Shown here piece by piece: positions 1,201-23,600 of a stretch of 35,740 nt of DNA. Origin of the DNA: an uncultured Oscillibacter sp. (GTDB lineage Bacteria > Bacillota > Clostridia > Oscillospirales > Oscillospiraceae); contig CANDBG010000024.1 in assembly GCA_947382875.1 (NCBI GenBank), positions 1 to 35,740 of the forward strand. The letters run 5' to 3'. Made by a program: the position numbers and the translations under genes. Below the pieces are notes generated by a model. The model was not told where the DNA came from, did not search any database, and was given only the letters and a program-made list of their open reading frames with translations. Numbering within the stretch: the first letter of the stretch is position 1; each line of letters begins with the position of its first letter.

Positions 1201-1264
1201 TTTGCAGTACAGCACTCTGCAAATTCCTTTTAAGGAGCATGGCAAACGGTTTCATAATCCGTTT
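1201..1264 (-). repeat. two small hairpins in the 3' region of ridA
   Basis: TTTGCAG/CTGCAAA (1201-1207 with 1217-1223) and AAACGG/CCGTTT (1244-1249 with 1259-1264) are perfect inverted repeats. They lie between the ridA stop codon and the terminator, and the second overlaps the stop. They may protect the 3' end of the operon transcript; this is inference. Confidence 0.4.
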
Positions 1265-1643: not shown

Positions 1644-1662
1644 CGTAAAGCCTCCTCTGTGG

Positions 1663-2604: not shown

Positions 2605-2641
2605 AATAAAGCCTCCAAAAAAACACTCCTATGGCTTCCGC

Positions 2642-3841: not shown

Positions 3842-3878
3842 GGTTCATTTCTCCTTTTTTACTCAATGATTTAATGAT

Positions 3879-5288
3879 TTATTGAATGTCGTTATCGGTC
3901 TTGCCGGCCCGGAACTGGGAAACATCGCCTGTCTTGGCGTCCTCTTTGTACAGAGAGGGAACCGCGGCATACAAAGCTGCGCAGCGAACCAGGTCGTCTT
4001 TCCACGTGATTTCGTTCGGCGCGTGGGCCTGGCTCTCCGCACCGGGGCCGAAGCCCACGCACGGAATGCCATAGCGTCCCTGAATGGCGACGCCGTTGGT
4101 GGAAAACGTCCATTTGTCGGTCAGCGGACGATGGCGCAGATGCATGGCGTCCCGTGCGGGGTCCGGGTCACTGTGTCCCAGACGCTCAGCGCCAAACAGT
4201 GCATGGTGCGCGTCCACAAGGGCCTGTACGTGGGCGGCGCTCTCTTTGTTGATCCAAGTGGGGAAATAGGCTTCCGTTTCGTAAACCGTGCCGGTCCAGG
4301 CGGGACGGTCATACATATACATAGACACTTTCACGTCATCGCCGTACTTCTTCACGGCGGGCAGGTCCCGAATCTCCTGGAGGCAGGAGTCCCAGGTTTC
4401 ACCGGCGGTCATGCGGCGGTCGATGGAGATGGAGCAGCTGTCGGCCACGGCGCAGCGGCTGGGAGACGTATAGAAAATTTGTGAGGTTGTGCAGGTGCCC
4501 CGGCCCAGGAAACGGGCGTCCTCAAAATGCTCGGGGTTGTATTTGGGGTCCAGCATCTTGATTAAACCTTTCACTTCTGCGCTGTCATCGGCGGGGTTTT
4601 CGTTCAGGGCGCGGACGTCCTGAAGAATATCGGCCATTTTATAAATGGCGTTGTCCCCGCGCTCGGGGGCGGAACCGTGACAGGACACGCCCTTCACGTC
4701 CACACGGATTTCCATGCGTCCCCGATGGCCGCGGTAAATGCCGCCGTCGGTGGGTTCGGTGGAAATGACAAATTCCACCTGTTCCTTTTGAATGCCGTTT
4801 TCTGGGAAGTATTTGTTAACGATGTACTGCCAGCACATACCGTCGCAGTCTTCCTCCTGGACGGAGCCAACCACCATAATCTTGTAATCGGCGGGAATCA
4901 GTCCCAGGTCCTTCATGATCTTCGCGCCGTACACGGCGGACGCCATGCCGCCTTCCTGGTCGGAACCGCCCCGGCCATAGATAATGGCGTCGTCTTCCCA
5001 GCCCTGGTAGGGGTCCGCGGTCCAGTTGTCGCGGTTGCCAATGCCCACCGTGTCAATGTGGGAGTCGATGGCAATGATCTTGTCGCCGCTGCCCATCCAG
5101 CCAATGACGTTGCCCAGACCATCCACTTCTACCTTGTCATAGCCCAGTTTCTCCATCTCTTCCCTGATGCAGGCCACAACTTCCTTTTCCTCACAGCTCT
5201 CACTGGGGTGAGAGATCATCGCCCGAAGAAAGGCGCTCAGGTCTGCGCGGCAGCCCTCGGCGGCGGCTAAGATTTTTTCCTTGTCCAT
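3879..5288 (-). CDS. ygeY: YgeY-type M20 metallohydrolase
   Basis: A 469-residue zinc hydrolase of the M20/ArgE/DapE group, subgroup YgeY (selenium-metabolism-linked hydrolase). Metal and catalytic residues are visible: H77 and D79 in DSHIDT, D110 in [10 protein letters not shown], the E145-E146 pair, and a late histidine near residue 422 (QAHAPNE). A dimerisation lid with [11 protein letters not shown] lies in the middle. The start at 5288 is preferred over one 15 bp upstream because GGAGGAG sits 5 bp before it. It probably cleaves an amide or ureide intermediate of purine breakdown; the exact substrate is unknown. Spacing to dpaL is 41 bp and to ygeW 37 bp, consistent with a single operon. 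Confidence 0.92.
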
Positions 5289-5329
5289 GTTTGTCTCCTC
5301 CATGTCAATTTCCGTGTTTGATTGCGTTC

Positions 5330-6529
5330 TTATACGACCGAATACATGCCGTCCCAGACAATTTTACGGTATTTGTCCGGGTCGGTGTCTCCCTCGGTGG
5401 AAAACAGGAGTACGCGGGAATTTTGGTTCAGTTCCAGGGCGTCCCGCAGCTCTTTGTACGCCTCGTTCTTCATAATCGTTGAGATTACGCCCATGCCTAC
5501 CGCTCCGGACTCGCCGGAGGTAACAGGAGAATCGCCCTTCACCGGCGCGGCCAGCATCCGCATTCCCAGTGCGCTCACCCAGTCCGGGCAGGAGAGGAAG
5601 GCATCTGCGTGATTGCGCAGAATGTCCCAGCCAATGGTGTTGGGTTCCCCGCAGGCCAGACCGGCCATGATGGTTTCGAGGTCGCCCCCCACGATGCGGG
5701 GGGAACCGTCGCCGGCCGCTGCGCCCTGGTAGAGACAGTCTGCCGCGCCTGCCTCCATCACCACGAATTTCGGCGGATGTTCCGAAAAACGGTTTGCAAA
5801 ACAGCCCACCACAGCCCCGGCCAGGGAACCTACGCCTGCCTGCACAAAAACGTGAGTCGGCGGCTGTTCCAATTGCTGTGCGGCCTCCGCCGCCATGGTG
5901 CCGTATCCCTGCATAATCCAGGAGGGAATTTCTTCGTAGCCCTCCCAGGCGGTGTCCTGCACCACGACGCCATGTTCGGTCTGTGCCGCTTCCGCGGCGG
6001 CCATGCGAACACAGTCGTCATAGTTCACTGCCTCAATGGTGACTTGCGCGCCTTCTTTGGCAATGTTGTCAAAGCGGCTTTGCGCGCTGCCCTTGGGCAT
6101 ATGAACCACCGATTTCTGACCCAGTTTATTTGCCGCCCAGGCAACACCCCGGCCATGGTTGCCGTCGGTGGCGGTGAAGAAGGTCGCCTGACCGAATTCC
6201 TCTTTCAGCTTTTCGCTGGTCAGATAATCGTAGGACAATTCCGACACGTCCCGGCCAAGCTCCTTGGCGATGTACTGGGCCATCGCGAAAGAACCGCCCA
6301 GCACCTTGAATGCGTTCAGACCGAACCGGTAACTCTCGTCCTTAACCCACAAACCACCCAGTCCAAGCCGCTGCGCCATCTGCGGCAAAGCAGTCAGCGG
6401 CGTGACGCCGTACTGGGGAAAGCTCTCATGGAACGCCCGCGCCTTTGCAACCTGCCCGGCGGACATGACGTTCAGCCAGCGGTCGTCACTGCGGGGCATT
6501 CGATTCCATATCCATTTGATTGCTTCCAT
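5330..6529 (-). CDS. dpaL: diaminopropionate ammonia-lyase
   Basis: A 399-residue fold-type II PLP enzyme, also called YgeX, that converts 2,3-diaminopropionate to pyruvate and two ammonia molecules through aminoacrylate. The PLP lysine is K75 in [12 protein letters not shown]; the phosphate-loop-like TDGNHGRG and the glycine-rich [14 protein letters not shown] follow. Length and motifs match E. coli YgeX closely. A strong AAGGAGG precedes the start, which lies 14 bp after the membrane-protein gene. In urate-degrading bacteria this gene is among those reported as needed for breakdown. The aminoacrylate intermediate connects it with ridA at the operon end. Confidence 0.95.
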
Positions 6530-6543
6530 TTTTGATTCCTCCT

Positions 6544-7191
6544 TCAGTTTGCTTTATGCTCTTTATGATCGATTCGTTTATGAAGATGTCCATAGCACTT
6601 TACCAGCTGTCCCACGGCCAGAGCGGAAAACATCGTACCTTCCCGCACGCCGTTCAGGCGTCCAAAGGCGCACAACGCCACAACCGCCGCAATTACCGTC
6701 AAAGCGCCGTCGAAACAGACCTTTACGCTGCCAAACGCCTTTTTCAGCCGTTTCGATAACGCACGGACAAACGCTTCGCCAGGAAGCATGATGACGTCAG
6801 CCAGAACCTCCAGATAAATTCCAAAGGCCATAATCAGGCAGCCAAGCGCCAGGTATCCCACAGAGTAAAGCCAAGGGCCTCCATATTGCGAAGGAATCCA
6901 GGTCAACGCCGTATCCACACACAGGCTGAAAAAAACGGTAATCGGGATTTGAAGCGCTTGCGCGATGGTAAACCGGCCAATGAGCAGACTCTCGCAGAGC
7001 AGAAAAAACAGATTGAATGCAAACGTATAGACCCCCATGGAAACCGGCGTAATCAAGCTGAGAACAAAGGGGATGCTGGAAATCGGAGATGTGCCCAAAC
7101 CGGCCCGGGTGACAAAGGCAATTCCCGCAGCACAAATCAAAACCCCTGTCAGAAAGATGGTAAAACGCCGCAGGGTTTCTTTGCTGGTCAC
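6544..7191 (-). CDS. YczE/YitT-like integral membrane protein
   Basis: A 215-residue hydrophobic protein with about five or six membrane segments (roughly residues 8-28, 40-70, 78-98, 108-135, 158-178). It resembles the YczE/YyaS/YitT group, with the early motif GIAFVTRAGLGTSPISS. Molecular functions in this group are poorly known. It starts with GTG, preceded by GGAGGAGG, and lies 15 bp after ygfK and 14 bp before dpaL, so it is translated as part of the catabolic operon. Transport of a pathway intermediate or product is an open possibility, but nothing in the sequence proves it. Confidence 0.75.
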   Translation of the reverse strand: MTSKETLRRFTIFLTGVLICAAGIAFVTRAGLGTSPISSIPFVLSLITPVSMGVYTFAFNLFFLLCESLLIGRFTIAQALQIPITVFFSLCVDTALTWIPSQYGGPWLYSVGYLALGCLIMAFGIYLEVLADVIMLPGEAFVRALSKRLKKAFGSVKVCFDGALTVIAAVVALCAFGRLNGVREGTMFSALAVGQLVKCYGHLHKRIDHKEHKAN

Positions 7192-7206: not shown

Positions 7207-10134
7207 TTATCGGTTCAGCAGCCAGGGATAGTCATTGCAGACCGTCAGAATCAATTTGCGGATGGTTTCTGTCAGGCCGCAATCCGGAGCGGCGGCATCC
7301 AGTTCCTTGATTTCATCGTCCAGACGCACCAGACAGCGAGTCCCGTCCAGAGGAAGCCAGCCCTGATTGGCGCTGTTTTCAAAGTCTTCCCGGGACCAGT
7401 AGAGTGTCAGCTTATCTTTGTACGGCGCGCTGTCGTAGGGACAGAAAACCGCACAGTTGCCGCACTCATTGCACATTCCATCCACATGAACGATCTGCGG
7501 CATGGCGATGCCGGGGACTTGAATGGCGACATTGGCCCGGTTGGGACATACATCCACACAGCACTGGCAAATGGTCGCGCATTCCAGGCACCGTTCTCCT
7601 GCGCCGCACTGGGAACAGTCTGCGCAAAGCGAACCTTTTTGTTCCAGCGCATACGCGGCATCCGGACGTACATTCTGGTTCGCGTATTTGTCCAGCTCCA
7701 GCTCGTTCAGAATGCTTTCCACAGCCCTGGCGGCGTCCGCAATGGCCTCCACTACGGTAGCCGGTCCGCGTTTCCGGTCGCCAATGACCGGCCAGCCGCC
7801 AACGTCTACGCTTTCGTCGATTTTCTCACCGACGGCGGCAATCAGTGTTGTGCAGGGCAATTCCACCGTTTTTCCCGTTGGCGCAGGCGCACGGCGTCCA
7901 GAGGCATCCGGCTCGCCCAGCTGCATGACCTGACAGGTCAGAATGTCGTCCTTTACGCCCTCCGGAGCCATCAATTCCAGGAATTCGATGCCTTCTTCCA
8001 GCGCTAATTGCAGCTCCTCTTCCTCGGCGGGCATTTGCTTTTTCGTGCGGCGGTAGATCAATCGAACGCGCTCCACTCCCGGCACGCGCTTCACGGCCCG
8101 GGCGGTGTCCATGGCGGAGTTTCCGCCTCCGATTACCGCAACATCGCTTCCCAGCATTAACGTCTTGCCGCTTTTGAGCGCGGACAAAACCTGTGTGAAG
8201 TTCTGATAGCTTCCGTATTTCAGACGAGGATCGCCGGCTTTCTGTGCGCCGGTCGCAAAGAGGATGTGAGTATATCCCTTGCCCTCCAGTTCAGCGGCGG
8301 AGGAAACCGGGCTGTTCAGCCGGACCTCTGCGCCCATCGAACGAATGATAGCTTCATCCTTGTCAATGGCGGCAGAGGAAATGCGGAATTCCGGGATCAC
8401 ATGGCGAACCACACCGCCCAGTTTTCCGGAAGCTTCATAAATCGTAACCGGAACGCCTTCCCGGCCCAGGAAGAACGCCGCCGCCATACCGGCAGGGCCG
8501 CCGCCTACGACTGCCACGCTGACGCCGCTTTTGGGGGCCTTGGGTTTCAGCGCTGGAAGGAGTCCGTCGAAGCCGTTTTCCGCCGCAGTCAGCTTGGCCG
8601 CACGGATGGACACGGGTTCTTCGTAGAAATCACGTGTGCACTTGTTGGTGCATCGGTGAGGGCAGATCGTTCCCGTAATGAACGGCAGGGGATTTCGCTG
8701 TGTGATTACCGTCAACGCCTGCGTGTAGTTCCCCTCCCGAACCAATCGCAAATAAGCGGGAATGTCCTGATGAATCGGACAGCCGCTTCGACAGGGAGCC
8801 GTAAAGCAATCGGTCAGCGGCACTTTTTCTTCCAGCTTCCGACCGGCTGCCGGCTTGATTGGCTTACGATAATAGTCATCCTGGAAGACGTTTTCCGCCA
8901 TAGCCGACACCGCGGCAGGGTCGACGCCGGTCCAGGCGCCGCCGCTGAGGCTGTCCAGTTCCGCGCCCAGCTGGCGCAGACGCGGATAACCGCCGGGCTT
9001 CAATAGGGTTGTTGCCACGGTCACAGGCCAGATTCCTGCGCTGGCCAGGGCCTTGATGCTGTGAAGGTCCGCGCCGCCGGAGTAGGAGATGCGCAGTTTG
9101 CCGCTGAACTCCTGGGACAGCCGGGAAGCCAATGTAATCGAAAGCGGGAAAAGCGAGCGTCCGGACATATACATTTCTTCGCTCGGCAATTCTCCGGCGG
9201 CAACATCCACGGGGAACGTGTTGGTCAGCTTGACGCCAAACTCTACGCCGCGTTTGGCCGCCAGGGCTTGCAGACGCTGGAACATCGGCACCGCGTCAGT
9301 CCACTGCAAATCCTCGTTAAAGTGGTGATCGTCGAAGGTAACGTAGTCAAAACCCAGACGGTCGAGGATGCTTCGCGCGGAGGAATAGCCCAGCAGGGTT
9401 GGATTGCATTTGACGTAAGTATGCAGCCCTTTCTCCTGAATCAAATAGGCTGCAATGCCCTCGATTTCGGCGGGCGGACAGCCGTGGAGCGTGGATTCCG
9501 TGATGGAGCGGGAGACAACCGGGGTTATGCCCTCCACAAAGGCGGCGTCCACCTTGCGGAACTGGTTCAGGTGGTCCAGCGCCCACTGGCGGCAGTTCTG
9601 GAACTCCGGCGTTTTGGACGCGTCCATCATTTCCGTGATGTATCGGTCAACCTTCGGACTTTTGATTCCCGCCAGGTCATAGCCTACGCTCATGTTAAAC
9701 ACAAAGCCGTTTTCGCTTCCCAGTTCCAGCTCCTGGGAGAGCAGCTTACAGGCAAACCATGCCTTGACATACTCCTCAAATGCCTGGGGGACCGTGAGTT
9801 CGGTGGACCATTCGCAGTTGTAGCACTCGTCACCGGCAGTAATGCAGGGCTTGTTTACACACTTGGATAACTCTTCGCCGTCCATAATCTGCACCGTTTT
9901 CAGCTCAAAGAAGCGGGCGCCTGAAACATAGGCCGCAACGATGTTCTGCGCAAGCTGTGTGTGCGGGCCGGCGGCGGGTCCCAGAGGAACTTCCACAGTT
10001 TCCTTGAAAAGGGGCCGTTTGGTGCCGTAAGCAGGTCCTTTCGGCACGCCAAACACAGTGCCCTGACGATGGTATTCCTCCAAGATCCAGTGCATCAGTC
10101 TGCCAAATGGAATCGGCCGCATGAGATCGCTCAT
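7207..10134 (-). CDS. ygfK: YgfK, iron-sulfur flavoprotein oxidoreductase subunit
   Basis: A 975-residue multidomain redox protein of the YgfK family (named as a putative selenate reductase subunit in E. coli). The first 400 residues form a dihydropyrimidine/dihydroorotate-dehydrogenase-like barrel. Next comes a glutamate-synthase-small-subunit-like module with an Fe-S cysteine group near 443-455 (CRSGCPIHQ), an FAD-binding VVGGGPAG near 540 and an NAD(P)-binding VIGGGNSAMD near 668. Two 4Fe-4S ferredoxin motifs close the protein (CQCCVDVCP near 860; CNECGNCAVFCP near 890). Such an architecture can pass electrons between NAD(P)H, flavin and a substrate or partner. In urate-degrading gut bacteria it is in the conserved gene set. 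It is a candidate for the reductive step on the purine ring, or an electron partner for the molybdenum hydroxylase (inference). Confidence 0.93.
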   Translation of the reverse strand: MSDLMRPIPFGRLMHWILEEYHRQGTVFGVPKGPAYGTKRPLFKETVEVPLGPAAGPHTQLAQNIVAAYVSGARFFELKTVQIMDGEELSKCVNKPCITAGDECYNCEWSTELTVPQAFEEYVKAWFACKLLSQELELGSENGFVFNMSVGYDLAGIKSPKVDRYITEMMDASKTPEFQNCRQWALDHLNQFRKVDAAFVEGITPVVSRSITESTLHGCPPAEIEGIAAYLIQEKGLHTYVKCNPTLLGYSSARSILDRLGFDYVTFDDHHFNEDLQWTDAVPMFQRLQALAAKRGVEFGVKLTNTFPVDVAAGELPSEEMYMSGRSLFPLSITLASRLSQEFSGKLRISYSGGADLHSIKALASAGIWPVTVATTLLKPGGYPRLRQLGAELDSLSGGAWTGVDPAAVSAMAENVFQDDYYRKPIKPAAGRKLEEKVPLTDCFTAPCRSGCPIHQDIPAYLRLVREGNYTQALTVITQRNPLPFITGTICPHRCTNKCTRDFYEEPVSIRAAKLTAAENGFDGLLPALKPKAPKSGVSVAVVGGGPAGMAAAFFLGREGVPVTIYEASGKLGGVVRHVIPEFRISSAAIDKDEAIIRSMGAEVRLNSPVSSAAELEGKGYTHILFATGAQKAGDPRLKYGSYQNFTQVLSALKSGKTLMLGSDVAVIGGGNSAMDTARAVKRVPGVERVRLIYRRTKKQMPAEEEELQLALEEGIEFLELMAPEGVKDDILTCQVMQLGEPDASGRRAPAPTGKTVELPCTTLIAAVGEKIDESVDVGGWPVIGDRKRGPATVVEAIADAARAVESILNELELDKYANQNVRPDAAYALEQKGSLCADCSQCGAGERCLECATICQCCVDVCPNRANVAIQVPGIAMPQIVHVDGMCNECGNCAVFCPYDSAPYKDKLTLYWSREDFENSANQGWLPLDGTRCLVRLDDEIKELDAAAPDCGLTETIRKLILTVCNDYPWLLNR

Positions 10135-10147: not shown

Positions 10148-11488
10148 TTAATAGCTTCGGTGATTTAATTCGCCCCAAAGTTTTTTGCTCTGCTCCATAA
10201 CCCAGGCATTGATTTTCTCCTCGTCAATGCCTGTGAATGCGCGGTCCTGATATACGACTTTTCCGTTGATGATGGTTGTGCGGCAGTTCTTGCCCATCAT
10301 GCCAAAGAGCATATGACCGTCGATGTTGTCCGGTCCAAAGGGCGTGAAGGGCTTGTAATCCATAACGATGATATCTGCGGCGGCTCCGGGCTTGAGTACG
10401 CCCAGGGGCTTTTCAAAATACCGGGCGCAAATCGCCGGGTTGTTCCGAAAGAGCATCCCGGCAGCCTCGCACCAGCCGACGCTGGGATCGCAGGCGTTGT
10501 GCCGCTGCATCGGCAGCACGACTTTCAGGCTTTCCAGCATATCGTGGGTGTAGGCGTCGGAACCCAATCCGATGAGGATGTTTCTGGCGCACATTTGCAG
10601 AACCGGCGAACAGCCTACGGCATTGCCCATATTGGACTCCGGGTTGTGGCAAACCATGGTGTTGGTTTCCTTGAGAATGTCCAGCTCGGCGGGGGAAACA
10701 TGGATGCAGTGGCCCAGCATGGTTTTTTCTCCCAGAATTCCGTTATACAGCAGCCGGTTAACAGGCCGGCAGCCATAATTGCGCAGGCTGTCGTAAACGT
10801 CGTTCATGCCCTCGGCCACATGAATATGGAAACCGGTTATGCCGTCGTTGGCTTTGACCATCTCCTCAAATGTACGGTCCGAAATGGTAAACAGGGCGTG
10901 ACCGCCAAACATGGCTTTGATCATATCGCTGTTTTCGTTCCTGGCCCACTTGGCGAAGTCCGCGTTCTCCTCAATGGACTGCCGGCATTTTTCCTGTCCG
11001 TCCCGTTCCGAGACCTCGTAGCACAGACAGGCGCGCATTCCCAATTCCTGACAAACGTCCTTAATGGCGAACAGGGAACCGGGAATCTCGCCAAAAGAGG
11101 CGTGGTGGTCAAAGATCGTCGTTACGCCATCCCGGATGCAGTCCAGCACAGTGGCGTAGGCACAGGCCCGCGTTCCATCCAAAGTAAGGTGGCGGTCGAT
11201 GTACCACCATTGGCCGTCCAGCACCTCGAGAAAGTTGGTGGGATGAAAGCCGTCGATGGACAGCCCGCGGGCCAATCCACTGTATATGTGGGTGTGTACG
11301 TTGATCAGGCCCGGCATGATGACGCCGCCTTTGGCATCAACGAACTCCGCTTGCGGGAACCGGGCCCGCAGGTCATCCAGTTTTCCTACCTCCTGAATGC
11401 GTTCGCCGTCCGTCAGAACTGCGCCGTCTTCCAGCCAGGGGGTTTCTTCGTCTCGCGTACATACACGTCCATTTCCAATCAGCAACAT
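10148..11488 (-). CDS. ssnA: SsnA, putative aminohydrolase
   Basis: A 446-residue amidohydrolase-superfamily protein of the SsnA subgroup, related to guanine deaminase and chlorohydrolases. Metal-binding residues are H65 and H67 (VHTHIYSG), histidines near 221-223 (GFHIHVAEG) and 259 (GHCIHVS), and an aspartate near 311 (GLGSDAYTHD). It is the first gene of the minus-strand operon, with AAAGGAGG before the ATG, and is followed 13 bp later by ygfK. Its leader carries the conserved 29-nt element and a terminator. A role in hydrolytic deamination or ring opening of a purine derivative is the natural reading; the exact substrate is not established. Confidence 0.93.
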   Translation of the reverse strand: MLLIGNGRVCTRDEETPWLEDGAVLTDGERIQEVGKLDDLRARFPQAEFVDAKGGVIMPGLINVHTHIYSGLARGLSIDGFHPTNFLEVLDGQWWYIDRHLTLDGTRACAYATVLDCIRDGVTTIFDHHASFGEIPGSLFAIKDVCQELGMRACLCYEVSERDGQEKCRQSIEENADFAKWARNENSDMIKAMFGGHALFTISDRTFEEMVKANDGITGFHIHVAEGMNDVYDSLRNYGCRPVNRLLYNGILGEKTMLGHCIHVSPAELDILKETNTMVCHNPESNMGNAVGCSPVLQMCARNILIGLGSDAYTHDMLESLKVVLPMQRHNACDPSVGWCEAAGMLFRNNPAICARYFEKPLGVLKPGAAADIIVMDYKPFTPFGPDNIDGHMLFGMMGKNCRTTIINGKVVYQDRAFTGIDEEKINAWVMEQSKKLWGELNHRSY

Positions 11489-11506: not shown

Positions 11507-11580
11507 GATAAATAAAAATGGCGCTCATCTCCTGAAAAGATGAACACCAGCCCGTGCGCGCAGCACTTCGTTACAGCCTT
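11507..11580 (-). promoter_or_regulatory. candidate riboswitch leader of the ssnA operon
   Basis: The 5' leader between the promoter and ssnA holds a 29-nt core (11578-11550) that is identical, base for base, to the core in the leader of the hydantoinase operon. The core includes UAACGAAGUGC, then a short hairpin GUGC-UGCGC-GCAC, then GGGC. Directly after it an 11-bp hairpin (arms 11548-11538 and 11530-11520, two G-U pairs) is followed by AUUUUUAUUU, a terminator. The first base pairs of that terminator lie next to the core, so folding of the core could prevent termination. The ligand is unknown; xanthine or urate would fit the genes. A protein-binding DNA site is the alternative. Confidence 0.65.
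11513..11548 (-). terminator. leader terminator (attenuator) before ssnA
   Basis: GGTGTTCATCT pairs with AGATGAGCGCC around a 7-base loop and is followed by ATTTTTATTT. It stands 30 bases before the ssnA start codon, so it must be read through for expression. This marks transcription attenuation. Confidence 0.75.
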
Positions 11581-11611
11581 AAATTGTCGGGGAAATTTGC
11601 TTGTTGGATGT

Positions 11612-11640
11612 ATTCTATCACACTGTTTTTTCAAATGCAA
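11612..11640 (-). promoter_or_regulatory. promoter of the ssnA-ridA operon
   Basis: On the minus strand TTGCAT (11640-11635) and TAGAAT (11617-11612) are separated by 17 bp. Transcription would begin near 11605, about 27 bases before the conserved leader core. It is back to back with the regulator promoter. Confidence 0.7.
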
Positions 11641-11747: not shown

Positions 11748-12398
11748 ATGCAGGCATCTGATTTTCAATTTTACTTCCACCTGGCCCACGCTATAGCCCA
11801 GCAGTTCGGCCCGGACTGCGAGGTTGTTGTCCATGACCTGGAAAGCAATGACCCGGATCGTTCCATCGTGGCCATTGAAAACGGGCACGTCACCGGGCGG
11901 CAGGTTGGAGACGGTCCTTCACGGATCGTTCTGGACGCCCTGCGGGGCGACCGCTCGAACTTGCAGGACCATCTGGCATACCTGACAAAAACCGCCGACG
12001 GAAAAATTCTGAAATCCAGTACCATTTACATTCGGGACGACTCCGGAATTGCCCGCGGCATTTTCTCCATCAACTACGACATTACCATGATGCTCTCCAT
12101 GGAAAAAACGCTGCGGGAATTCACCGCGACGGACCTTCCGGAACCGGAACCCGCTCCAATTTCCCGCAGCGTCAGCGACCTTCTGGACGAGCTGATCGCA
12201 CGGAGTGCAGAGGTGGTTGGAAAGCCGGTTGCACTTATGGGAAAGGAAGATAAAATTCGGGCGATTCAGTTTTTGAACGACTCCGGCGCTTTTTTGATTA
12301 CAAAGTCCGGGGACAAGGTATGCAAATTTTTCGGAATTTCCAAATACACGCTGTACAATTACATTGATGAAGCAAAGGCGCAGAACGCCTCGGAATAA
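11748..12398 (+). CDS. YheO/DauR-like PAS-HTH transcriptional regulator
   Basis: A 216-residue predicted DNA-binding regulator. The first 115 residues match the YheO-type PAS domain (HLAHAIAQQFGPDCEVVVHDL at the start, then IVAIENGHVTGR and GIFSINYD). A C-terminal helix-turn-helix of about residues 155-212 ends in KFFGISKYTLYNYIDEAK. DauR and YheO are the known examples of this layout, and DauR responds to a small molecule. The start at 11748 follows AAGGGGGA; an upstream ATG at 11682 would fall in the promoter and is rejected. It is divergent from the ssnA operon and convergent with the permease, so it is the likely local regulator of the purine genes (inference). Confidence 0.85.
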   Translation: MQASDFQFYFHLAHAIAQQFGPDCEVVVHDLESNDPDRSIVAIENGHVTGRQVGDGPSRIVLDALRGDRSNLQDHLAYLTKTADGKILKSSTIYIRDDSGIARGIFSINYDITMMLSMEKTLREFTATDLPEPEPAPISRSVSDLLDELIARSAEVVGKPVALMGKEDKIRAIQFLNDSGAFLITKSGDKVCKFFGISKYTLYNYIDEAKAQNASE

Positions 12399-12478: not shown

Positions 12479-13813
12479 TCAGTCCGACGTTTCTTTTGGT
12501 AAAATCAGGTTGAGCAGAATCGCCATAAGGGTTGCAGCGACCACCGCCGTCGAGCCAAACACGGTAGACACCCAGCCCGGAAAACCGTTGCCGGACAGAC
12601 AGCCGGGCACCTGCGTAATTCCGACGCCCAGCGCAACCGACAGACCGACCACGGTGCTTTTGCGCATCGTAAAAGCGCCTTCTGAGGTAATCATGCGGAT
12701 GCCGGTCATGGTAATGGTCGCGAACACCGACAGCGTTGCGCCGCCAATGACACACTGTGGAATCGTCGTCAGAAGCGACGCAAATTTCGGCATAAAGCCA
12801 GCAATCAAAAGAATCCCGGAGGCGAATGTAAAGACCGCGCGGTTAATGACTTTATTGACCGTAACAATTCCCACATTCTGGCTGAACGAAGCAACCGGCA
12901 GCCCGCCAAAAAAGACGCCGATCAGGCTCATGACGCCCTGTCCGATAATGCCGTCGGAAAGCTCCTTGTCCGTCGGCACACGGTCCATACCGCCCATGGT
13001 GGTGGAAGTCAGGTCACCGATGGTCTGCACGGAATTGACCACATAGACAATCGCCAGGGAGACAATCGCCGAGGGAACAAACTCGATTTCAAAGGGCATG
13101 AACTTCGGCAGCGCCACCCAGGAGGCTCCCGCCACTCCGGACAGCTCCACAATCCCCACGAAACAGGCGGCGATATATCCTGCAATCATTCCGAACAATA
13201 AAGAACCTAACTTCCAGATACCCTGGGTGAAGTTGTTCAGGAAAATGACGATGGCAAAGGTAAACAGCGCAACGCCCCAGCTCCGCACGCCTCCGAACCA
13301 TTCGCTGGACGCGTTGCCGCCAGCCATATAACGGACAGCAGTGGGATAGAGGGAAAGGCCGATGGTGAAAATAACGGTACCTGTCACCAGGGGCGGAAAC
13401 AGCTTGCGGATTTGCTTCACAAAAATTCCGAACACAATCGCAACCATGCCGCCCACAAGCTCCGCGCCTAAGATTGTGGAAAGGCCGAACTGTCCGCCGA
13501 TGGCCGTCAGCGTGGGGACGTAAGCGAAGCTGATTCCCATGATGACCGGCAGACGCGCGCCGATGCGGTGGAAAATCGGAAACAGCTGAAGAAGTGTCGC
13601 GAGAGCCGTAATAATCAGGGACGCCTGAATCAGGATCGTTTTTTCCTCCGCGTTGAGACTGCACACTTCGCTGCCGGAAATAATGAGGGCCGGTGTGATG
13701 ACGCCTACCACCGCCGCAACGACATGCTGAAGTCCCAGCGGAATCAGCTGACCTGCGGGGGGAATGCCCTCATACGAAAAAACACTGGCGGCGTTCTTTG
13801 CTGACCGTTCCAT
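12479..13813 (-). CDS. NCS2-family xanthine/urate permease
   Basis: A 444-residue membrane transporter of the nucleobase-ascorbate (NCS2) family with about 12-14 hydrophobic segments. The early QHVVAAVVG and the later SFSQNVGIVTVNK fit the family; the latter is the substrate-site signature Q-N-x-G-x4-T, here with N in place of the final T. The subgroup looks like xanthine/urate carriers (PbuX, XanQ, UacT) rather than uracil carriers. The start at 13813 follows GAAGGAG; the reading frame open to 13840 would begin inside a palindrome. It is a single gene with its own promoter, and is the obvious uptake route for the substrates of both operons. Confidence 0.88.
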   Translation of the reverse strand: MERSAKNAASVFSYEGIPPAGQLIPLGLQHVVAAVVGVITPALIISGSEVCSLNAEEKTILIQASLIITALATLLQLFPIFHRIGARLPVIMGISFAYVPTLTAIGGQFGLSTILGAELVGGMVAIVFGIFVKQIRKLFPPLVTGTVIFTIGLSLYPTAVRYMAGGNASSEWFGGVRSWGVALFTFAIVIFLNNFTQGIWKLGSLLFGMIAGYIAACFVGIVELSGVAGASWVALPKFMPFEIEFVPSAIVSLAIVYVVNSVQTIGDLTSTTMGGMDRVPTDKELSDGIIGQGVMSLIGVFFGGLPVASFSQNVGIVTVNKVINRAVFTFASGILLIAGFMPKFASLLTTIPQCVIGGATLSVFATITMTGIRMITSEGAFTMRKSTVVGLSVALGVGITQVPGCLSGNGFPGWVSTVFGSTAVVAATLMAILLNLILPKETSD

Positions 13814-13838
13814 TTTTCTAATTCTCCTTCTGATAATC

Positions 13839-13870
13839 ATTAAAATTTTTTATTGCTAAAAAATTTTAAT
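13839..13870. promoter_or_regulatory. perfect 14-bp palindrome at the permease transcription start
   Basis: ATTAAAATTTTTTA, a 4-base centre and TAAAAAATTTTAAT form a perfect inverted repeat. With the promoter at 13874-13902 the transcript would begin within or at its edge. It can be an operator that blocks transcription start, or a 5' hairpin in the mRNA 26 bases before the start codon. The AAAAAATTT half-site also occurs in the ssnA/regulator intergenic region. Confidence 0.6.
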
Positions 13871-14150: not shown

Positions 14151-14230
14151 AAACACAGCGGCTGTAACGAAGTGCTGCGCGCACGGGCCACCCCTTTTGG
14201 GTATACGTTACAGCGGCTGTGTTTGTTTTT
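14151..14230 (+). promoter_or_regulatory. candidate riboswitch leader of the hydantoinase operon
   Basis: The leader carries the same 29-nt core as the ssnA leader (here 14160-14188). Arms 14151-14169 and 14206-14224 are complementary over 19 bp with one mismatch, and the right arm runs into GTTTGTTTTT, a terminator. The left arm takes in the conserved UAACG, so the core cannot be both in the terminator stem and in an aptamer fold. Ligand binding to the core would thus favour read-through (ON switch). Between the arms lie two small hairpins, GUGC-UGCGC-GCAC and ACCC-CUUUU-GGGU. AGGAGG of the first gene follows at once. The ligand is unknown; purine catabolites are the likely class (inference). 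Confidence 0.7.
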
Positions 14231-14247: not shown

Positions 14248-15630
14248 ATGTACATTATCCAAAACGGAACTTTGGTTTCGTCCGAAAGAGTATGGCGGGC
14301 GGACCTGGCGATGGAGGACGGAAAAATCACTGCGATTGCACCAAACCTTGCGCCGAAACCGGGGGACTGCGTTACCGATGCAAAAGGGTGCTTTGTATTT
14401 CCGGGTTTCATTGACCCCCATACGCATCTGGACATGAACAACGGCGTCACCACAACGGCGGACGATTTTTCCTCCGGCACGCTGGCGGCGGTGTGCGGAG
14501 GCACAACAACGCTCCTCGACTTCGCCACACAGGACAAGGGAAAGAGCTTAAAAGAGGCGTTGGAGCTCTGGCACAAAAAGGCCGGCGGCCGCAGCAGCTG
14601 CAATTACGGTTTTCACATGGCCGTTACCGACTGGAACGAACATACCCGGCAGGAATTGATGGAAATGATTTCCGCCGGCGTCACATCGCTCAAGGTCTAT
14701 CTGGCCTATGACGCCCTCCGCATTTCCGATGCCCAGCTTCTGGACATTTTGCAGGAGTGCCGTTCGTTAGGCCTGCAAATTGGCTGTCACTGTGAAAACG
14801 GTGAGATTGTGAACTTTTTGCAGCGCCGGGAGTTATCCCGGGGAAATTACGGTCCGGCGGCGCATCCGGTTTCGAGGCCCGCCGCGGTCGAGGCGGAAGC
14901 CATCAGCCGTTACGCATACATCGCCGGTCTGGCGGAATGTCCCATTACCGTAGTGCATCTGTCCAGCGCCGCAGGACTGGAAGAAGTCCGGAATGCACGG
15001 CGGCGCGGGCAAACCGTTCAGGTGGAAACCTGCCCCCAGTATTTGCTGCTGGATGAGAGCCGGTATCTGCTTCCCGGATTTGAGGGCGCGAAGTTCGTGA
15101 TGAGTCCGCCCCTGCGGAGCGTTTCTGACCGGAATACTTTGTGTCAGGCGGTTTTGGACGGAGAAATCGACACCATTGCCACCGACCATTGTTCGTACCG
15201 TTTCGCCGGACAGAAGGAGCTTGGACGAAATGATTTTACCAAAATCCCCAACGGAGCGCCTGGTCTGGAACACCGGCCTGCACTGTTTTTTACCCAATTT
15301 GTCTCCACAGGTCTGCTTGACCCGGAACGAATGTGCGCGCTGCTGTCGGAAAACCCGGCCCGCCAATATGGAATGTTTCCTCAAAAGGGGCTCCTTGCGG
15401 TTGGCGCGGACGCCGACATAACCGTTTGGAATCCAAATACTGTCCGGACCATTTCCGCCGCAAACCAGCGCCATCAAACAGATTATACTCCCTACGAGGG
15501 AATGACGGTCAAGGGCAGCGCCAGCATGGTTTTTGTCAACGGAATCCTGACGGTCCGGGACGGCGTGCCTGTTCAGACAGGCGCGGGAGCCTATGTTTTC
15601 CGCAAATGCACATCCACGTCCCTTCGTTAG
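14248..15630 (+). CDS. hyuA: hydantoinase / dihydropyrimidinase family hydrolase
   Basis: A 460-residue cyclic-amidase of the dihydropyrimidinase/D-hydantoinase family, which opens hydantoin-like or dihydropyrimidine rings to carbamoyl amino acids. Metal ligands are in place: H58 and H60 (DPHTHLD), the carboxylated lysine K149 (TSLKVYLAYD), H181, H237 and D313 (TDHCSY). The start at 14248 follows AGGAGGAGG; a frame open from 14197 runs through the leader hairpin and is rejected. HyuA-type enzymes are in the conserved urate-degradation gene set. It is the first gene of the operon that then supplies the molybdenum hydroxylase, and its ureido products would be substrates for YgeY/YgeW in the other operon (inference). 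Confidence 0.92.
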   Translation: MYIIQNGTLVSSERVWRADLAMEDGKITAIAPNLAPKPGDCVTDAKGCFVFPGFIDPHTHLDMNNGVTTTADDFSSGTLAAVCGGTTTLLDFATQDKGKSLKEALELWHKKAGGRSSCNYGFHMAVTDWNEHTRQELMEMISAGVTSLKVYLAYDALRISDAQLLDILQECRSLGLQIGCHCENGEIVNFLQRRELSRGNYGPAAHPVSRPAAVEAEAISRYAYIAGLAECPITVVHLSSAAGLEEVRNARRRGQTVQVETCPQYLLLDESRYLLPGFEGAKFVMSPPLRSVSDRNTLCQAVLDGEIDTIATDHCSYRFAGQKELGRNDFTKIPNGAPGLEHRPALFFTQFVSTGLLDPERMCALLSENPARQYGMFPQKGLLAVGADADITVWNPNTVRTISAANQRHQTDYTPYEGMTVKGSASMVFVNGILTVRDGVPVQTGAGAYVFRKCTSTSLR

Positions 15631-15652
15631 AACGTCAAACAGGAGAGCAACT

Positions 15653-16582
15653 ATGAAAATCAGTCGCGTAGGCGGCATGATTGCCGCGGCCAGTCAAAGC
15701 ATTGCAAGACCTATGCTGCAAGTGGGATCGATTTCGATTATCCGCCGGATTGTCATTACCTTCCAGCAAGCCGGAATTTTTCCGATTGTTGTCATTACCG
15801 GCGCGGATGAAGACCGGGTTCGGTATGAGCTATCCAATCACGGCGTTATTTTTCTGTCCAGCGCGCCGTCCGCGAACGCAAAGCTGCTGGAATGCGCACA
15901 GATTGGAATGCGTTACCTGGCGGGGAAGTGTGAACAAATGGTGTTTACGCCCGTCAATACGCCGATGTTCCGGCCCAATACCTTACAAACATTGATTCAC
16001 GCCAAAGGCGATCTGATTTTACCGTCCTTCGGCGGGAAAAGCGGGCATCCTCTGCTTGTATCGGCCGCCGCTGCGAAACAGATTGTCGGCTTCCGTGGTG
16101 AGGAGGGCTTGCCGGAAGTTCTGCAAGCCCTGACCGGAAGCAAAATTACCGTGGAAGTCGAGGACCCGGGAATTCTGACAAATATATGCAACGATCAGGA
16201 GCTGCAAAAACAGCTGGACAGCCACAATCAATCGCTTTTGCATCCGCAGGTTCAGCTGAGCATTGGACGGGAAACGCCCTTTTTTAACGCACGCTTAAAG
16301 CTGCTGCTCTTTCTGCTTTCGGACACGCACAATATGCGCAAGGCCTGTTCCGCCATGGCGATTTCCTACGGAAAGGCATGGGACATGATCAACCGTCTGG
16401 AACGGGAACTGGGGTATTTTGTGGTCGAACGGGCCCAGGGCGGAAGAAACGGCGGAAATACCTCCCTGACAGAAGCGGGGATTCGGTTTCTGCGGGCCTG
16501 TCAGGAATACGAGGAGACCGTATTTCAATTTGCACAAAATCAGTTTCAGGATATGTTTATCTCATCAAAAATCATAGGATAA
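15653..16582 (+). CDS. NTP-transferase-like domain fused to ModE-type winged helix
   Basis: A 309-residue fusion. Residues 1-195 have the MobA/MocA nucleotidyltransferase fold pattern, with GKSGHPLLVS at 129-137. Residues about 205-285 are a ModE/LysR-type winged helix (NARLKLLLFLLSDTHNMRKACSAM, then GGRNGG-TSLTEAG). The enzyme signature LAAGxSSRMG is degraded to IAAASQSIAR at 10-19, and the metal-binding aspartate of TPADIP is an asparagine (TPVNTP, N102). Compare the intact MocA encoded at 25307. The N-terminal part is therefore probably a sensor of nucleotide or molybdopterin rather than an enzyme. The protein likely controls molybdenum genes of this operon, with candidate sites before xdh and modA (inference). 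It begins 22 bp after hyuA, behind AGGAG. Confidence 0.85.
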   Translation: MKISRVGGMIAAASQSIARPMLQVGSISIIRRIVITFQQAGIFPIVVITGADEDRVRYELSNHGVIFLSSAPSANAKLLECAQIGMRYLAGKCEQMVFTPVNTPMFRPNTLQTLIHAKGDLILPSFGGKSGHPLLVSAAAAKQIVGFRGEEGLPEVLQALTGSKITVEVEDPGILTNICNDQELQKQLDSHNQSLLHPQVQLSIGRETPFFNARLKLLLFLLSDTHNMRKACSAMAISYGKAWDMINRLERELGYFVVERAQGGRNGGNTSLTEAGIRFLRACQEYEETVFQFAQNQFQDMFISSKIIG

Positions 16583-16586
16583 AATC

Positions 16587-16638
16587 TGCAAGTTCTTCCG
16601 GGGAATAACTTGCAACTCCAGGCGGCGGCACGTATCAT
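16587..16638 (+). promoter_or_regulatory. internal promoter with overlapping palindrome before xdh
   Basis: TTGCAA (16610-16615), 17 bp, TATCAT (16633-16638) make a plausible internal promoter 36 bp before the xdh start codon. TGCAAGTT (16587-16594) and AACTTGCA (16607-16614) form a perfect inverted repeat whose right half covers the -35 box, as a repressor site would. No T tract follows, so it is not a terminator. Confidence 0.5.
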
Positions 16639-16673
16639 GAATTTGTAACATTTCACAAGAAAAGAGGGTATGA

Positions 16674-19241
16674 ATGATGTTTGCTGTAAATGTCAACGGA
16701 AAAAATTACGAAGCGGAACAGGATAAAAAGCTGCTGTCGTTTCTGCGGGACGACCTCCATCTGACGGCGGCCAAGGACGGATGCAGCGAAGGCGCCTGCG
16801 GCACCTGTACGGTGCTGGTGGACGGCGTGAAAACAAAGGCGTGCGTGGTGTCCGTCAGCAAGCTGGAAGGAAAAAAGGTTCTGACCGTGGAGGGCATCGC
16901 GCCGGAGGAAATGCGTATTTACGAGCATTGCTTTGCGGAAGCGGGAGCCGTTCAATGTGGGTTCTGCATTCCCGGCATGATTCTTTCCGCGAAAAGTCTG
17001 CTGGATAAAAATTTGAATCCCACGCGGGCGGATGTCAAACAGGCCATTCGAGGCAACCTGTGCCGCTGCACGGGCTACAAGAAAATTGAGGATGCCATTT
17101 TGATGGCAGCGGAGTTCTTCCGGGAGAACAAGCCGATCCCCCCCGCTCCGACTTCCTTACATATGGACGAGTATGCCAAACGCATCGACGCTGCGGAAAA
17201 GATCAATGGTACGGGCCTGTTTGCGGACGACATTGCGGTAGAGGGAATGCTTTATGCAAAGCCGGTCTACTCCAAGTACCCGCGGGCCAGAATCAACCGA
17301 ATTGACGTGAGCCGCGCCCAGGCGCACCCGGACTGCGTAAAGGTTCTGACAAAAAAGGATGTGCCCTGCAACAAAATCGGGCACATCAAGCAGGACTGGG
17401 ATGTTATGATGGGCGAAGGTGATATTACCCGCTATGTCGGAAATGTCCTGGCGGTTATTGCCACCGGCAAAAAGGAAAAGCTGGAAGAAATTGCCGCGCT
17501 GGTGGAGGTGGATTACACCGAACTGGAACCGGTAACGACCCCGTTCGACGCCCTGAAGGGTGACGCGCCCCTCCTGCATCCCGACGGCAACATCATGAGC
17601 CGGGCCAATCTGATTCGGGGCAATGCGGACGAGGCGATCAAGAACGCAAAGTATGTTGTTACCCGAAAATATAAGACCTCCTGGCAGGACCACGGCTTCA
17701 TGGAGCCCGAATGCTGCGTGGCCATGCCGGAGGGTGAGGACGGACTTCTGGTCTATACCAGCAGTCAATCGGTTTATGATGTACAGCGGGAATGTTCCGC
17801 GATGCTGCAAATTCCGCCGGAAAAGTTACATTGCCGTGCACCGCTGGTCGGCGGCGGCTTTGGCGGAAAAGAGGATATGTCGGTTCAGCAATACGCCGTT
17901 TTGACGGCCTGGGTGACAAAGCGGCCTGTCAAGGTAAAATATACCCGTCAGGAATCTTTGAATTACCACGTAAAGCGTCACCCGATGGAGATGGAGTTCA
18001 CGACCGCCTGTGATGAAAACGGTATTTTAGTGGGCATGAAAGGCGTTATCATCGCGGACACCGGAGCCTATGCCTCTTTGGGCGGTCCGGTGCTTCACCG
18101 GGCCTGCACCCACGCCGCCGGTCCTTACAATTACCAGAACATTGACATCCTTGGTATGTCTGTATATACCAACAATGTGGTTTCCGGAGCTTTCCGCGGC
18201 TTCGGCGTGACTCAGAGCTGCTTTGCAACGGAAATGAACATCAATCTTCTGGCGGAGATGGCCGGTCTGGACCCGTGGGAAATCCGCCGCCGCAATGCGA
18301 TCAAGCCGGGCGACGTACTGCCCAATGGTCAGACGGCAGAGCCAAACACCAACATGGCCGCCTGTCTGGACGCGGTGAAGGACGTGTTCTACTCGAACCC
18401 CTATGCCGGAATCGCCTGCGGCTTCAAGAATTCCGGTACAGGCATGGGCAAAAAGGATATTGGCCGGGTGCTGCTCAGTGTGGAACAGGGAAAGGTCCAC
18501 ATTCGAACATCCGCCTCCTGCATGGGCCAGGGAATCGGGCAGATGACGCTGACGGAAATCTGTCATGTGACCGGTCTGGACCCGGCGTTGTTTGTCTTCG
18601 AGAACGCCGACACGGTTCGCACGCCCAACTCGGGTACGTCCACAGCGTCCCGTCAGACGGTGATGACGGGCGAGGCGGCCCGCCGTGCGGGAGAAAAGCT
18701 GAAGCTGGCTCTGGACGGCGGAAAGACCGTCGCGGACCTGGAAGGACAGGAATTTTTCGGCGAGTATTCCGCCAAAACGGACCCGCTGGGCGCTGTCAAG
18801 GAAAATCCGGTCAGCCATGTTTCGTATTCGTACGGCGCACAGGTAATCCTTTTGAACGAGGAAGGTAAGATTACAAAAGCGGTCTCCGCTTTCGACGTGG
18901 GCACTCCGGTTAACATTCAATCGGTCGAGGGCCAGATTGAAGGCGGTATGGTTATGGGCATTGGCTATGGCGTTACCGAAAAGTTTGAGTGCGTCGATGG
19001 ACGGCCAACCAGCAAATTCGGTACGATTGGTTTTATGCGTGCCACGGAAGCGCCGGAATTGGAGGTCATTCTGTGCCAGCCCGAGGAAAAGGATAGGCTC
19101 CCCTACTCCCTGGGCGCGAAGGGCTGCGGCGAGCTGTGCATGATTCCCACCGCCCCCGCCTGTGCGCACGCCTATTACCGTTTTGACGGAAAATTCCGTC
19201 AGAGCCTGCCCCTGGCGGGGACGCCTTACCGCAAAAAATAA
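16674..19241 (+). CDS. xdh: xanthine dehydrogenase, selenium-dependent-type molybdenum hydroxylase
   Basis: An 855-residue fusion of the [2Fe-2S] and molybdenum-binding subunits. The first ferredoxin cluster uses C37, C42, C45 and C57 (CSEGACGTC), the second C95, C98, C130 and C132 (CGFC, CRCTG). The molybdenum half has GGGFGGKED, the FRGFGVTQ loop, QGIGQM and the active-site glutamate near 820 in GAKGCGELC. Length and layout fit the family annotated as selenium-dependent xanthine dehydrogenase, in which a labile selenium replaces the Mo=S sulfur. Selenium itself cannot be read from sequence, and no selD, yqeB or yqeC is in the window. No FAD subunit is encoded nearby. It would interconvert hypoxanthine, xanthine and urate, in the reductive or oxidative direction. 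Confidence 0.92.
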   Translation: MMFAVNVNGKNYEAEQDKKLLSFLRDDLHLTAAKDGCSEGACGTCTVLVDGVKTKACVVSVSKLEGKKVLTVEGIAPEEMRIYEHCFAEAGAVQCGFCIPGMILSAKSLLDKNLNPTRADVKQAIRGNLCRCTGYKKIEDAILMAAEFFRENKPIPPAPTSLHMDEYAKRIDAAEKINGTGLFADDIAVEGMLYAKPVYSKYPRARINRIDVSRAQAHPDCVKVLTKKDVPCNKIGHIKQDWDVMMGEGDITRYVGNVLAVIATGKKEKLEEIAALVEVDYTELEPVTTPFDALKGDAPLLHPDGNIMSRANLIRGNADEAIKNAKYVVTRKYKTSWQDHGFMEPECCVAMPEGEDGLLVYTSSQSVYDVQRECSAMLQIPPEKLHCRAPLVGGGFGGKEDMSVQQYAVLTAWVTKRPVKVKYTRQESLNYHVKRHPMEMEFTTACDENGILVGMKGVIIADTGAYASLGGPVLHRACTHAAGPYNYQNIDILGMSVYTNNVVSGAFRGFGVTQSCFATEMNINLLAEMAGLDPWEIRRRNAIKPGDVLPNGQTAEPNTNMAACLDAVKDVFYSNPYAGIACGFKNSGTGMGKKDIGRVLLSVEQGKVHIRTSASCMGQGIGQMTLTEICHVTGLDPALFVFENADTVRTPNSGTSTASRQTVMTGEAARRAGEKLKLALDGGKTVADLEGQEFFGEYSAKTDPLGAVKENPVSHVSYSYGAQVILLNEEGKITKAVSAFDVGTPVNIQSVEGQIEGGMVMGIGYGVTEKFECVDGRPTSKFGTIGFMRATEAPELEVILCQPEEKDRLPYSLGAKGCGELCMIPTAPACAHAYYRFDGKFRQSLPLAGTPYRKK

Positions 19242-19267
19242 ATCAGGAAACCCTTTGCGACAACACA

Positions 19268-19295
19268 GAGCGCTTGGGCCAACGCCCAGGCGCTC
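19268..19295 (+). other. intercistronic hairpin after xdh
   Basis: GAGCGCTTGGGC and GCCCAGGCGCTC pair over 12 bp (one G-T wobble) around a 4-base loop. The following bases are TAAAAAC, not a T tract, so it more likely stabilises or marks processing of the mRNA than ends transcription. The next gene's AGGAGG lies immediately downstream. Confidence 0.5.
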
Positions 19296-19315
19296 TAAAA
19301 ACAGGAGGAAGCCAT

Positions 19316-20350: not shown

Positions 20351-20351
20351 A

Positions 20352-20834
20352 ATGGAGTTTACGCACATGGACGAACAAGGCAACGCCCGTATGGTGGATG
20401 TCGGAGGAAAGGCGGTAACGCAGCGCACGGCAGTGGCGGAGGGCCGGATTGTCATGAGCGCCGAATGCTTCCGCATGGTGCGGGAGGGCCGGATAAAAAA
20501 GGGCGACGTTCTGGGGGTGGCCCAGGTTGCGGGAATCCAAGCAGTCAAGCAGACCGCCAATCTGATTCCCCTTTGTCATCCTCTATACGTCACAAAAAGC
20601 GATGTGGCATTTGAACTGGATGACGCATCGCATTCCATCGCCGTCCGCTGCGCCGCGGCGTGTGACGGAAAAACCGGCGTGGAAATGGAAGCTCTTACAG
20701 GCGTGACGGCGGCTCTGCTAACCATCTACGATATGTGCAAGGCGGCGGACAAACGCATGATGATTCAAAATGTTCATCTGCTGGAAAAGCAGGGAGGAAA
20801 CAGCGGAGACTTCCGCTTTGAGGAGCCGCTATGA
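20352..20834 (+). CDS. moaC: cyclic pyranopterin monophosphate synthase
   Basis: A 160-residue MoaC, which together with MoaA turns GTP into cyclic pyranopterin monophosphate, the first step of molybdenum cofactor synthesis. Typical stretches are MVDVGGKAVTQRTAVA, LIPLCHPL (active-site histidine), GVEMEALTGV and IYDMCKAADK. The start at 20352 leaves one base after the preceding stop. Its stop overlaps the moaA start by four bases (ATGA), so the two are translationally coupled. Confidence 0.96.
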   Translation: MEFTHMDEQGNARMVDVGGKAVTQRTAVAEGRIVMSAECFRMVREGRIKKGDVLGVAQVAGIQAVKQTANLIPLCHPLYVTKSDVAFELDDASHSIAVRCAAACDGKTGVEMEALTGVTAALLTIYDMCKAADKRMMIQNVHLLEKQGGNSGDFRFEEPL

Positions 20835-21787: not shown

Positions 21788-21789
21788 GC

Positions 21790-22725: not shown

Positions 22726-22730
22726 ATAAT

Positions 22731-23592: not shown

Positions 23593-23600
23593 GGGGGCGT

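Follow-up and report, generated by a model that had tools for sequence, protein, structure and literature searches.

Two copies of the ssnA RNA precede reductive urate pathway operons, with yanthine as a candidate ligand

Two identical 29-base elements, lying before two operons on opposite strands of a 35,740-nucleotide stretch of DNA (the window), belong to the ssnA RNA family (RF03031), and RNAs of this family probably act as ON switches of urate pathway operons that bind yanthine or another pathway purine, yanthine being the most likely. Our analysis establishes the family membership of both copies, their structure and RNA nature, the presence of terminators, the linkage to pathway genes and, for the copy before hyuA and 23 further leaders, the mutual exclusion of terminator and core. 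A wider and more tentative proposal is that the ssnA RNA constitutes a yanthine riboswitch class, possibly with at least four expression platforms that would all switch the urate pathway ON in gut Oscillospiraceae and their relatives. The family itself was already catalogued, and a search confined to open-access PMC full text found no ligand stated for it. Added here are a family name for both copies, a gene rule (ssnA-ygfK first, other pathway genes second), a single logic by which very different leaders can be read, and a ligand proposal that draws on biochemistry from 2025.

Two copies of one RNA family and the operons behind them

The element on the minus strand (11578-11550) matches 14160-14188 on the plus strand without mismatch over 29 bases. 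The flanks of the two copies are dissimilar, a third copy is absent from the window at up to three mismatches, and 100 dinucleotide shuffles of this DNA produced no 29-mer match, all of which upholds the identity between two otherwise differing leaders that a sequence-only reading of this DNA had pointed out. Upon scanning with cmscan against Rfam 15, both copies exceeded the RF03031 gathering score of 37.3 bits: copy 1, in the leader of the ssnA operon, scored 49.2 bits (11539..11586, minus strand) and copy 2, in the leader of the hyuA operon, 46.9 bits (14153..14198, plus strand; core 14160-14188). Our own model R1, which had both copies among its training sequences, gave 52.4 and 47.1 bits, respectively. 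Since both copies match RF03031, they are neither a new class nor relatives of NMT1, the two options that the sequence-only reading had considered. Rfam has models for NMT1 and purine riboswitches, and that reading had expected these above all to be informative; NMT1 and the guanine/adenine purine riboswitches are absent from the three window matches over gathering, and the ssnA RNA was found instead. Likewise, no other riboswitch family appears at the two leaders among seven Rfam matches (E <= 10) in 11400-14400, where matches to mir-6, SNORD23, mir-4899 and U6atac fall far under the respective gathering scores and were dismissed as chance. The ssnA motif was reportedly described by Weinberg et al. 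in NAR in 2017, and the Rfam type of RF03031 is Cis-reg, without the riboswitch label that the same table gives to a NiCo match. This NiCo riboswitch (RF02683, 28493-28594, minus strand, 81.6 bits) lies directly before a cation-efflux (CDF) gene (27508-28431, minus strand), the expected arrangement.

In the Rfam alignments both copies carry the helices P1 and P2 and the conserved internal loop, and the core holds a conserved GNAANGNA strand and the bulged G34. In copy 1 (core 11578-11550, minus strand), P1 pairs 11578-11575 with 11552-11549 and P2 pairs 11566-11563 with 11557-11554; in copy 2, the only mismatch in the helices is the outermost P1 pair. Each copy is preceded at a short distance by a -10-like box and followed by an operon. 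For the ssnA operon, a promoter-like TTGCAT-17-TAGAAT identified by eye (11612..11640, minus strand; -35 at 11640-11635, -10 at 11617-11612) is to be regarded as weak because it is absent from the consensus promoter matches of the region; its -10 box lies 32 nt before motif column 8, near the promoter-to-core spacing of about 27 nt given earlier. Copy 1 is followed by an intrinsic terminator stem and then TTTTTATTTA (11519..11549, minus strand), the stem sharing motif columns 38-39 with P1. The hairpin described earlier right after the core is present at 11549-11519, with 14 pairs in place of the 11 bp first counted, and the proposed riboswitch order is likewise borne out on this side: promoter-like site, core, terminator, ribosome-binding site and the ssnA start at 11488. 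In the hyuA leader, a terminator-like hairpin overlooked in the earlier reading (arms 14151-14169 and 14206-14224, plus strand, 95% complementary, then GTTTTT) has the first ten bases of the 29-base core in its 5' arm.

Profile matches identify reductive urate pathway genes behind the two cores, in agreement with the earlier assignment of these genes to purine degradation. The minus-strand operon, ordered ssnA-ygfK-DUF6198-ygeX-ygeY-ygeW-arcC-ridA, begins with SsnA, the yanthine pathway aminohydrolase (10148..11488; NF005540 630 bits, TIGR03314 554.5 bits), and YgfK, the flavin/Fe-S reductase of the yanthine step (7207..10134; TIGR03315 1286 bits); a DUF6198 membrane protein (6544..7191; PF19700) is its third gene, and ygeX, ygeY, ygeW, arcC and ridA, the remainder of the pathway, occupy 1263..6529. 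The plus-strand operon, ordered hyuA-mocA-like-xdh(Se)-Moco genes-mod genes, opens with HyuA of the dihydropyrimidinase family (14248..15630; TIGR02033 564.5 bits) and continues over 15593..25297 with a MocA-like protein, a homolog of Se-dependent xanthine dehydrogenase (XdhD-like), MoeA-like, MoaC, MoaA, MOSC-MoaB, ModA, ModB and a ModC-like ATPase, the MocA-, MoeA- and ModC-like labels falling below NCBIfam cut-offs. Between the operons lie a YheO-like PAS_6/HTH_22 regulator (11748..12398, plus strand) and an NCS2 purine permease (12479..13840, minus strand); no RNA precedes the permease, cmscan having found only two ssnA RNA matches in the whole window.

Covariation, distribution and gene linkage of the ssnA RNA

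We aligned 119 distinct sequences (alignment A1), 69 of them found via the Rfam model and 50 via our own pattern; since the pattern fixes most core bases, the invariance of most core columns is partly by construction in 50 of the 119. Outside these leaders are G611, G508 and L173, missed by the regular expression. P1 and P2 were paired in 97.2% of cells, against at most 56% for slid structures, and cells in which both partners had changed numbered 23, compared to a shuffled mean of 6.8 (0 of 500 shuffles as high). Two of the five measures were no different from shuffles: the number of pairs with a double change (3 vs 2.5 in shuffles, 251/500 as high) and further pair types (64/500 as high). 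These counts are not independent, as the leaders are related by descent. Among the 89 distinct cores, the best-covarying column pairs of the core were 24-30 in P2 and 9-38 in P1, both free to mismatch in the search pattern. Furthermore, the 12-35 pair is a U-G wobble in 119/119 sequences (69/69 among those found by the model), and 9-38 is A-U in 75, G-U in 31, G-C in 11 and other in 2. Conserved wobbles of this kind argue for RNA, since a symmetrical (inverted-repeat) DNA operator would not yield them. Homologous leaders thus retain the core, with covariation in both helices, and the covariation, the wobble pairs and the terminators described below support the earlier view of a conserved, apparently transcribed, cis-acting RNA under selection.

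A search of 300 genomes of the family with the Rfam model returned matches at E <= 0.001 in 78; 71 of these were over cut-off, at 73 places in all. In the class, where 391 genomes were searched, the window's own genome alone was over cut-off. Sub-threshold matches occurred in five other genomes of the class; the two inspected (G611 and G508) were without the core pattern and were dropped. Across 295 genomes of the order, model R1 had matches in nine, every one a member of the window's family. An exact-pattern scan of named genomes yielded at least 119 loci, with labels among those listed that include Oscillibacter, Flavonifractor, Intestinimonas, Dysosmobacter, Pseudoflavonifractor, Gemmiger, Subdoligranulum, Fournierella, uncultured Oscillospiraceae and others; in one scan of viral contigs the consensus pattern was unmatched. 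Approached from the gene, 90 ssnA genes pass NCBI's cut-off; the RNA lies no more than 600 nt upstream of 72 of them, and 18 are without it. One of the 18 (G095) was probably separated from its RNA by a contig break, the RNA standing at the end of a different contig, and the upstream regions of the other 17 yielded a relic at L250 alone. The L250 relic (G196:C67) is a diverged sequence before ssnA whose P1 is changed and still pairable (ACC/GGU); as it scores only 9.9 bits (E 0.52), the ssnA RNA family may be wider than the model finds. Two weak places within the family, G221 (24.3 bits) and G186 (23.3 bits), are without ssnA behind them and were left out of the 119 leaders.

The gene that follows the RNA is nearly constant. 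Within the 300 family genomes, ssnA is directly next in 71 of the 73 places over cut-off, the two exceptions being copy 2 of the window, before hyuA, and a second copy in G287, before an NfnAB-like pair. Of the named loci listed, the first 80 are followed by ssnA in 76, by hyuA in one (L136, Intestinimonas), by an NfnAB-like pair in one and by the contig end in two; a further 39 (L198-L236), which served this tally alone and stayed outside alignment and folding, are followed by ssnA in 34, the contig end in three, DUF6198 in one and another gene in one (L208). By eye, the first codons at the three contig-end loci resemble SsnA starts, and the first gene of L208 begins like DUF6198 before it is broken off. 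Across the whole-genome set without the window, ssnA is next in 74 of 80 places, with ygfK among the next genes in 68 of these 74. All 76 RNA-bearing genomes examined (the 78 minus the weak G221 and G186) match the Se-dependent xanthine dehydrogenase model at E <= 0.001; 72 of them do so over cut-off, and 67 carry YgeW over cut-off. An XdhD-like gene lies within 12 kb behind the RNA on the same strand in only 10 of the 72, the window's genome included, a count that may miss some neighbours because many assemblies are fragmented.

The window copies agree with the catalogued ssnA RNA in sequence, structure and gene association. The window differs in its second copy, before hyuA-xdh-Moco-mod, and relatives differ in copies before NfnAB-like or DUF6198 genes. 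The NfnAB-like case is a second ssnA RNA copy in Intestinimonas (L106:2283-4519, minus strand), which precedes genes for an FAD/NAD-binding protein, similar to sulfide/dihydroorotate dehydrogenases, and for GltA. Such a pair of FAD/NAD-binding subunit and GltA we take to be a source of NADPH, and this copy may therefore link the ssnA RNA to NADPH supply. The RNA also stands directly before the DUF6198 gene in L230, and the DUF6198 protein is a possible transporter for a pathway compound.

Terminators, folding and expression platforms

Of the 119 leaders, 113 have an intrinsic terminator (E <= -10) in the stretch from core to start codon, compared to 90 of 1190 dinucleotide-shuffled leaders (7.6%). 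The case for terminators rests on this leader comparison, as a generic terminator scan of the window region found four against a shuffled mean of 4.7. Leaders were grouped into four types, A (58), B (24), C (5) and D (27), with five leaders lacking a terminator by these criteria. In four of these five (L125, L158, L174 and L195), where the RNA is present and 26-53 nt separate core and start, no terminator was found, and these four short leaders may be under translational control.

Conflict between core and terminator is most direct in type B, defined by a terminator 5' arm with four or more core bases and including the window's hyuA copy. Enforcing the aptamer removed at least four terminator pairs in 24/24 type B leaders, a result that is partly circular because the type is defined by overlap; pairing of the core with downstream sequence beat shuffles in 14 of the 24. 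For the hyuA copy this pairing did not beat shuffles (p 0.52). We attribute this to a GC-rich core that pairs with almost anything, and rely on the specific stem instead: enforcing the aptamer in the hyuA leader costs 12.7 kcal/mol and lowers the terminator pairs from 18 to 9 (about nine outer pairs can remain). The P1 5' strand and joining nucleotides are part of the 5' arm of the hairpin, so that the inner half of this arm is incompatible with the aptamer fold.

Type A leaders contain a further helix, P0, in which the 5' flank and columns 8-10 pair with bases just after the core, so that P0 and P1 are exclusive. P0 was paired in 90.5% of type A cells, with 16 double-change cells against a mean of 4.4 (0/500 shuffles as high), and it beat shuffles in 28 of 58 leaders (p <= 0.05), the remainder not doing so. 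An antiterminator formed by the post-core region and the terminator 5' arm beat shuffles in 42 of the 58 (p <= 0.05). In type D, many of whose members come from Flavonifractor-like genomes, an antiterminator beside the core beat shuffles in 20 of 27 leaders, pairing between core and linker being weak (6/27 beyond shuffles). Taken over the leaders outside type B, antiterminators exceeded chance in 62 of 95. When the core was enforced and the transcript folded up to the terminator 5' arm, an antiterminator of at least five pairs formed in 58/58 type A leaders (48 unconstrained) and in 26/27 of type D (20 unconstrained). In full-length leaders of types A and D with the core enforced, most terminators can still form (the median number of pairs goes from 14 to 13 in type A and stays at 11 in type D), so that the switching effect would be kinetic and the antiterminator argument applies to the transcript as it stands before synthesis of the terminator 3' arm. 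Under these folding models, the simplest reading of types A, B and D suggests that a stable core means no terminator and an operon that is ON.

Type C comprises the five leaders, the window's ssnA copy included, whose terminator starts in the last one or two P1 bases. Here the aptamer costs at most 3.7 kcal/mol, 0/5 leaders lose four or more terminator pairs, and pairing of the core with downstream sequence beats shuffles in 0/5. In the window's ssnA leader, the cost of enforcing the aptamer varies with the segment folded, from 2.8 to 3.5 kcal/mol, and the terminator stays; as folding shows no conflict between terminator and aptamer, the logic of this leader is taken from its relatives. An expression platform that excludes the fold or is linked to the aptamer is thus present in copy 2 and in many type A, B and D leaders and is not visible in copy 1. 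Unconstrained folding of the window leaders gave 0 to 4 of the 8 aptamer pairs.

Candidate ligands and rival explanations

The reactions of the ssnA RNA's partner genes have been assigned only since 2025 (Li et al. 2025, PMC12507026; commentary PMC12990295). By these accounts, an XdhD-type enzyme reduces urate to yanthine (2,8-dioxopurine), YgfK and SsnA together, and not singly in assays, turn yanthine into ureidomethyl-hydantoin, and HyuA opens the latter compound. Of the reductive urate cluster in these papers, ssnA, ygfK, hyuA, ygeW/X/Y, carbamate kinase and an xdh-like gene are all in the window. The word riboswitch is absent from the main text of PMC12507026, and PMC12990295 nowhere mentions an RNA regulator. 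As the RNA stands before ssnA-ygfK and this pair consumes yanthine, it marks the yanthine-consuming pair, and a substrate-induced switch for SsnA and YgfK would point to yanthine as its ligand, with urate as the nearest rival. On the grounds of gene neighbourhood, we therefore propose to narrow the earlier candidates (xanthine, urate or a breakdown product) to yanthine or urate, yanthine first. Molybdenum cofactor is an unlikely ligand, given that neither SsnA nor YgfK is a molybdoenzyme.

In the mechanism that we propose, both copies would be 30-nt hairpin aptamers (P1, an 8x1 internal loop and P2), each beginning one of two transcripts. Between them, these transcripts carry the genes of the reductive (anaerobic) urate pathway along with those that supply it with molybdenum cofactor and molybdenum uptake. 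A pathway purine, most likely yanthine, would bind and stabilise the core; the nascent RNA would then fail to complete the terminator, or would keep an antiterminator, and transcription would continue (ON). Switching ON in this way fits a catabolic pathway whose substrate is its inducer. We infer the ON sign, the identity of the ligand and a small molecule, rather than a protein, as the stabiliser.

The same RNA switch might instead respond to the pathway's entry compound, uric acid (or xanthine), which we judge unlikely, even though urate fits the gene set nearly as well as yanthine. The whole pathway, with its XdhD-like and Moco genes, is contained in the two operons under RNA control in the window; ygfK, ssnA and other pathway genes are urate-induced in gut bacteria (PMC12990295); and the unrelated class NMT1 senses both xanthine and urate (PMC7373994). 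NMT1 resembles the ssnA RNA in being a small hairpin whose internal bulge is conserved and which precedes purine-degradation genes; among the genes near NMT1 are those for dioxygenases, transporters and deaminases, whereas the ssnA RNA in the window accompanies the reductive urate pathway. The RNA tracks ssnA-ygfK, however, and not the urate-consuming XdhD-like gene, found close behind it in the 10 of 72 genomes noted above (with many assemblies fragmented), and the window's NCS2 permease has no RNA before it; both points speak against urate. Decidedly less probable is that the core serves an RNA-binding antiterminator protein, by logic like that of LicT or PyrR, in place of a metabolite. Protein antitermination targets also look like hairpins of about 30 nt that compete with terminators, and the conserved internal-loop bases would suit protein recognition too. 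Against this, no known RNA-binding antiterminator gene recurs beside the RNA in 23 of the 30 neighbour clusters with four or more members: 13 of the 30 match window proteins, and ten further annotated clusters are Upp-, FtsW-, TsaE- and TsaD-like, a response regulator, DUF1292, a penicillin-binding protein, PALP, DUF362 and a symporter. The YheO-like gene is divergent within 2 kb in only 21/74 and 25/76 ssnA-linked places (overlapping sets, some contigs ending sooner).

That same regulator, lying between the window's operons and beside those 21 and 25 places, raises the further possibility that the YheO-like PAS/HTH protein binds the 29-mer as its DNA operator, copied to both promoters, which we regard as very improbable. 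The conserved G-U wobbles and the covariation of pairs speak for RNA, as does the position of the regulator gene, which was not found divergent within 2 kb in 53/74 and 51/76 places and is thus not adjacent in most; the earlier preference for RNA over the regulator's DNA site is sustained on these grounds. Furthermore, the terminator 5' arm contains core bases in 24 leaders, and in 53 of 119 leaders column 8 is preceded, at a distance of 19-24 nt, by the best -10-like box. That 21 nt is the commonest spacing (36/119 leaders) partly reflects shared descent, as 35 of the 36 are type A, and leader promoter scores are slightly above shuffles (mean 9.8 vs 8.8).

Joining the RNA family to the 2025 reactions leaves this orphan RNA with a few candidate ligands that can be tested, yanthine foremost. 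We know of no other genetic sensor for yanthine, and an RNA that senses it, if confirmed as such, would be of use for reporting urate breakdown in the gut, a process relevant to gout. The varied platforms around one conserved core also form a good natural series for the study of switch evolution.

Two side observations concern the window itself. Its SsnA shares 81-85% identity with that of several Intestinimonas and Flavonifractor genomes and only 66-67% with the SsnA of five genomes of its own assigned genus (e.g. G155), and a tyrosine recombinase lies at 62-982; these identities and the recombinase may point to transfer or to a misplaced contig. In the hyuA operon, the MocA-like nucleotidyltransferase (15593-16582, plus strand) is fused to a LysR-type HTH (25.3 bits vs the Pfam cut-off of 26.6), a fusion that is perhaps a ModE-like sensor.
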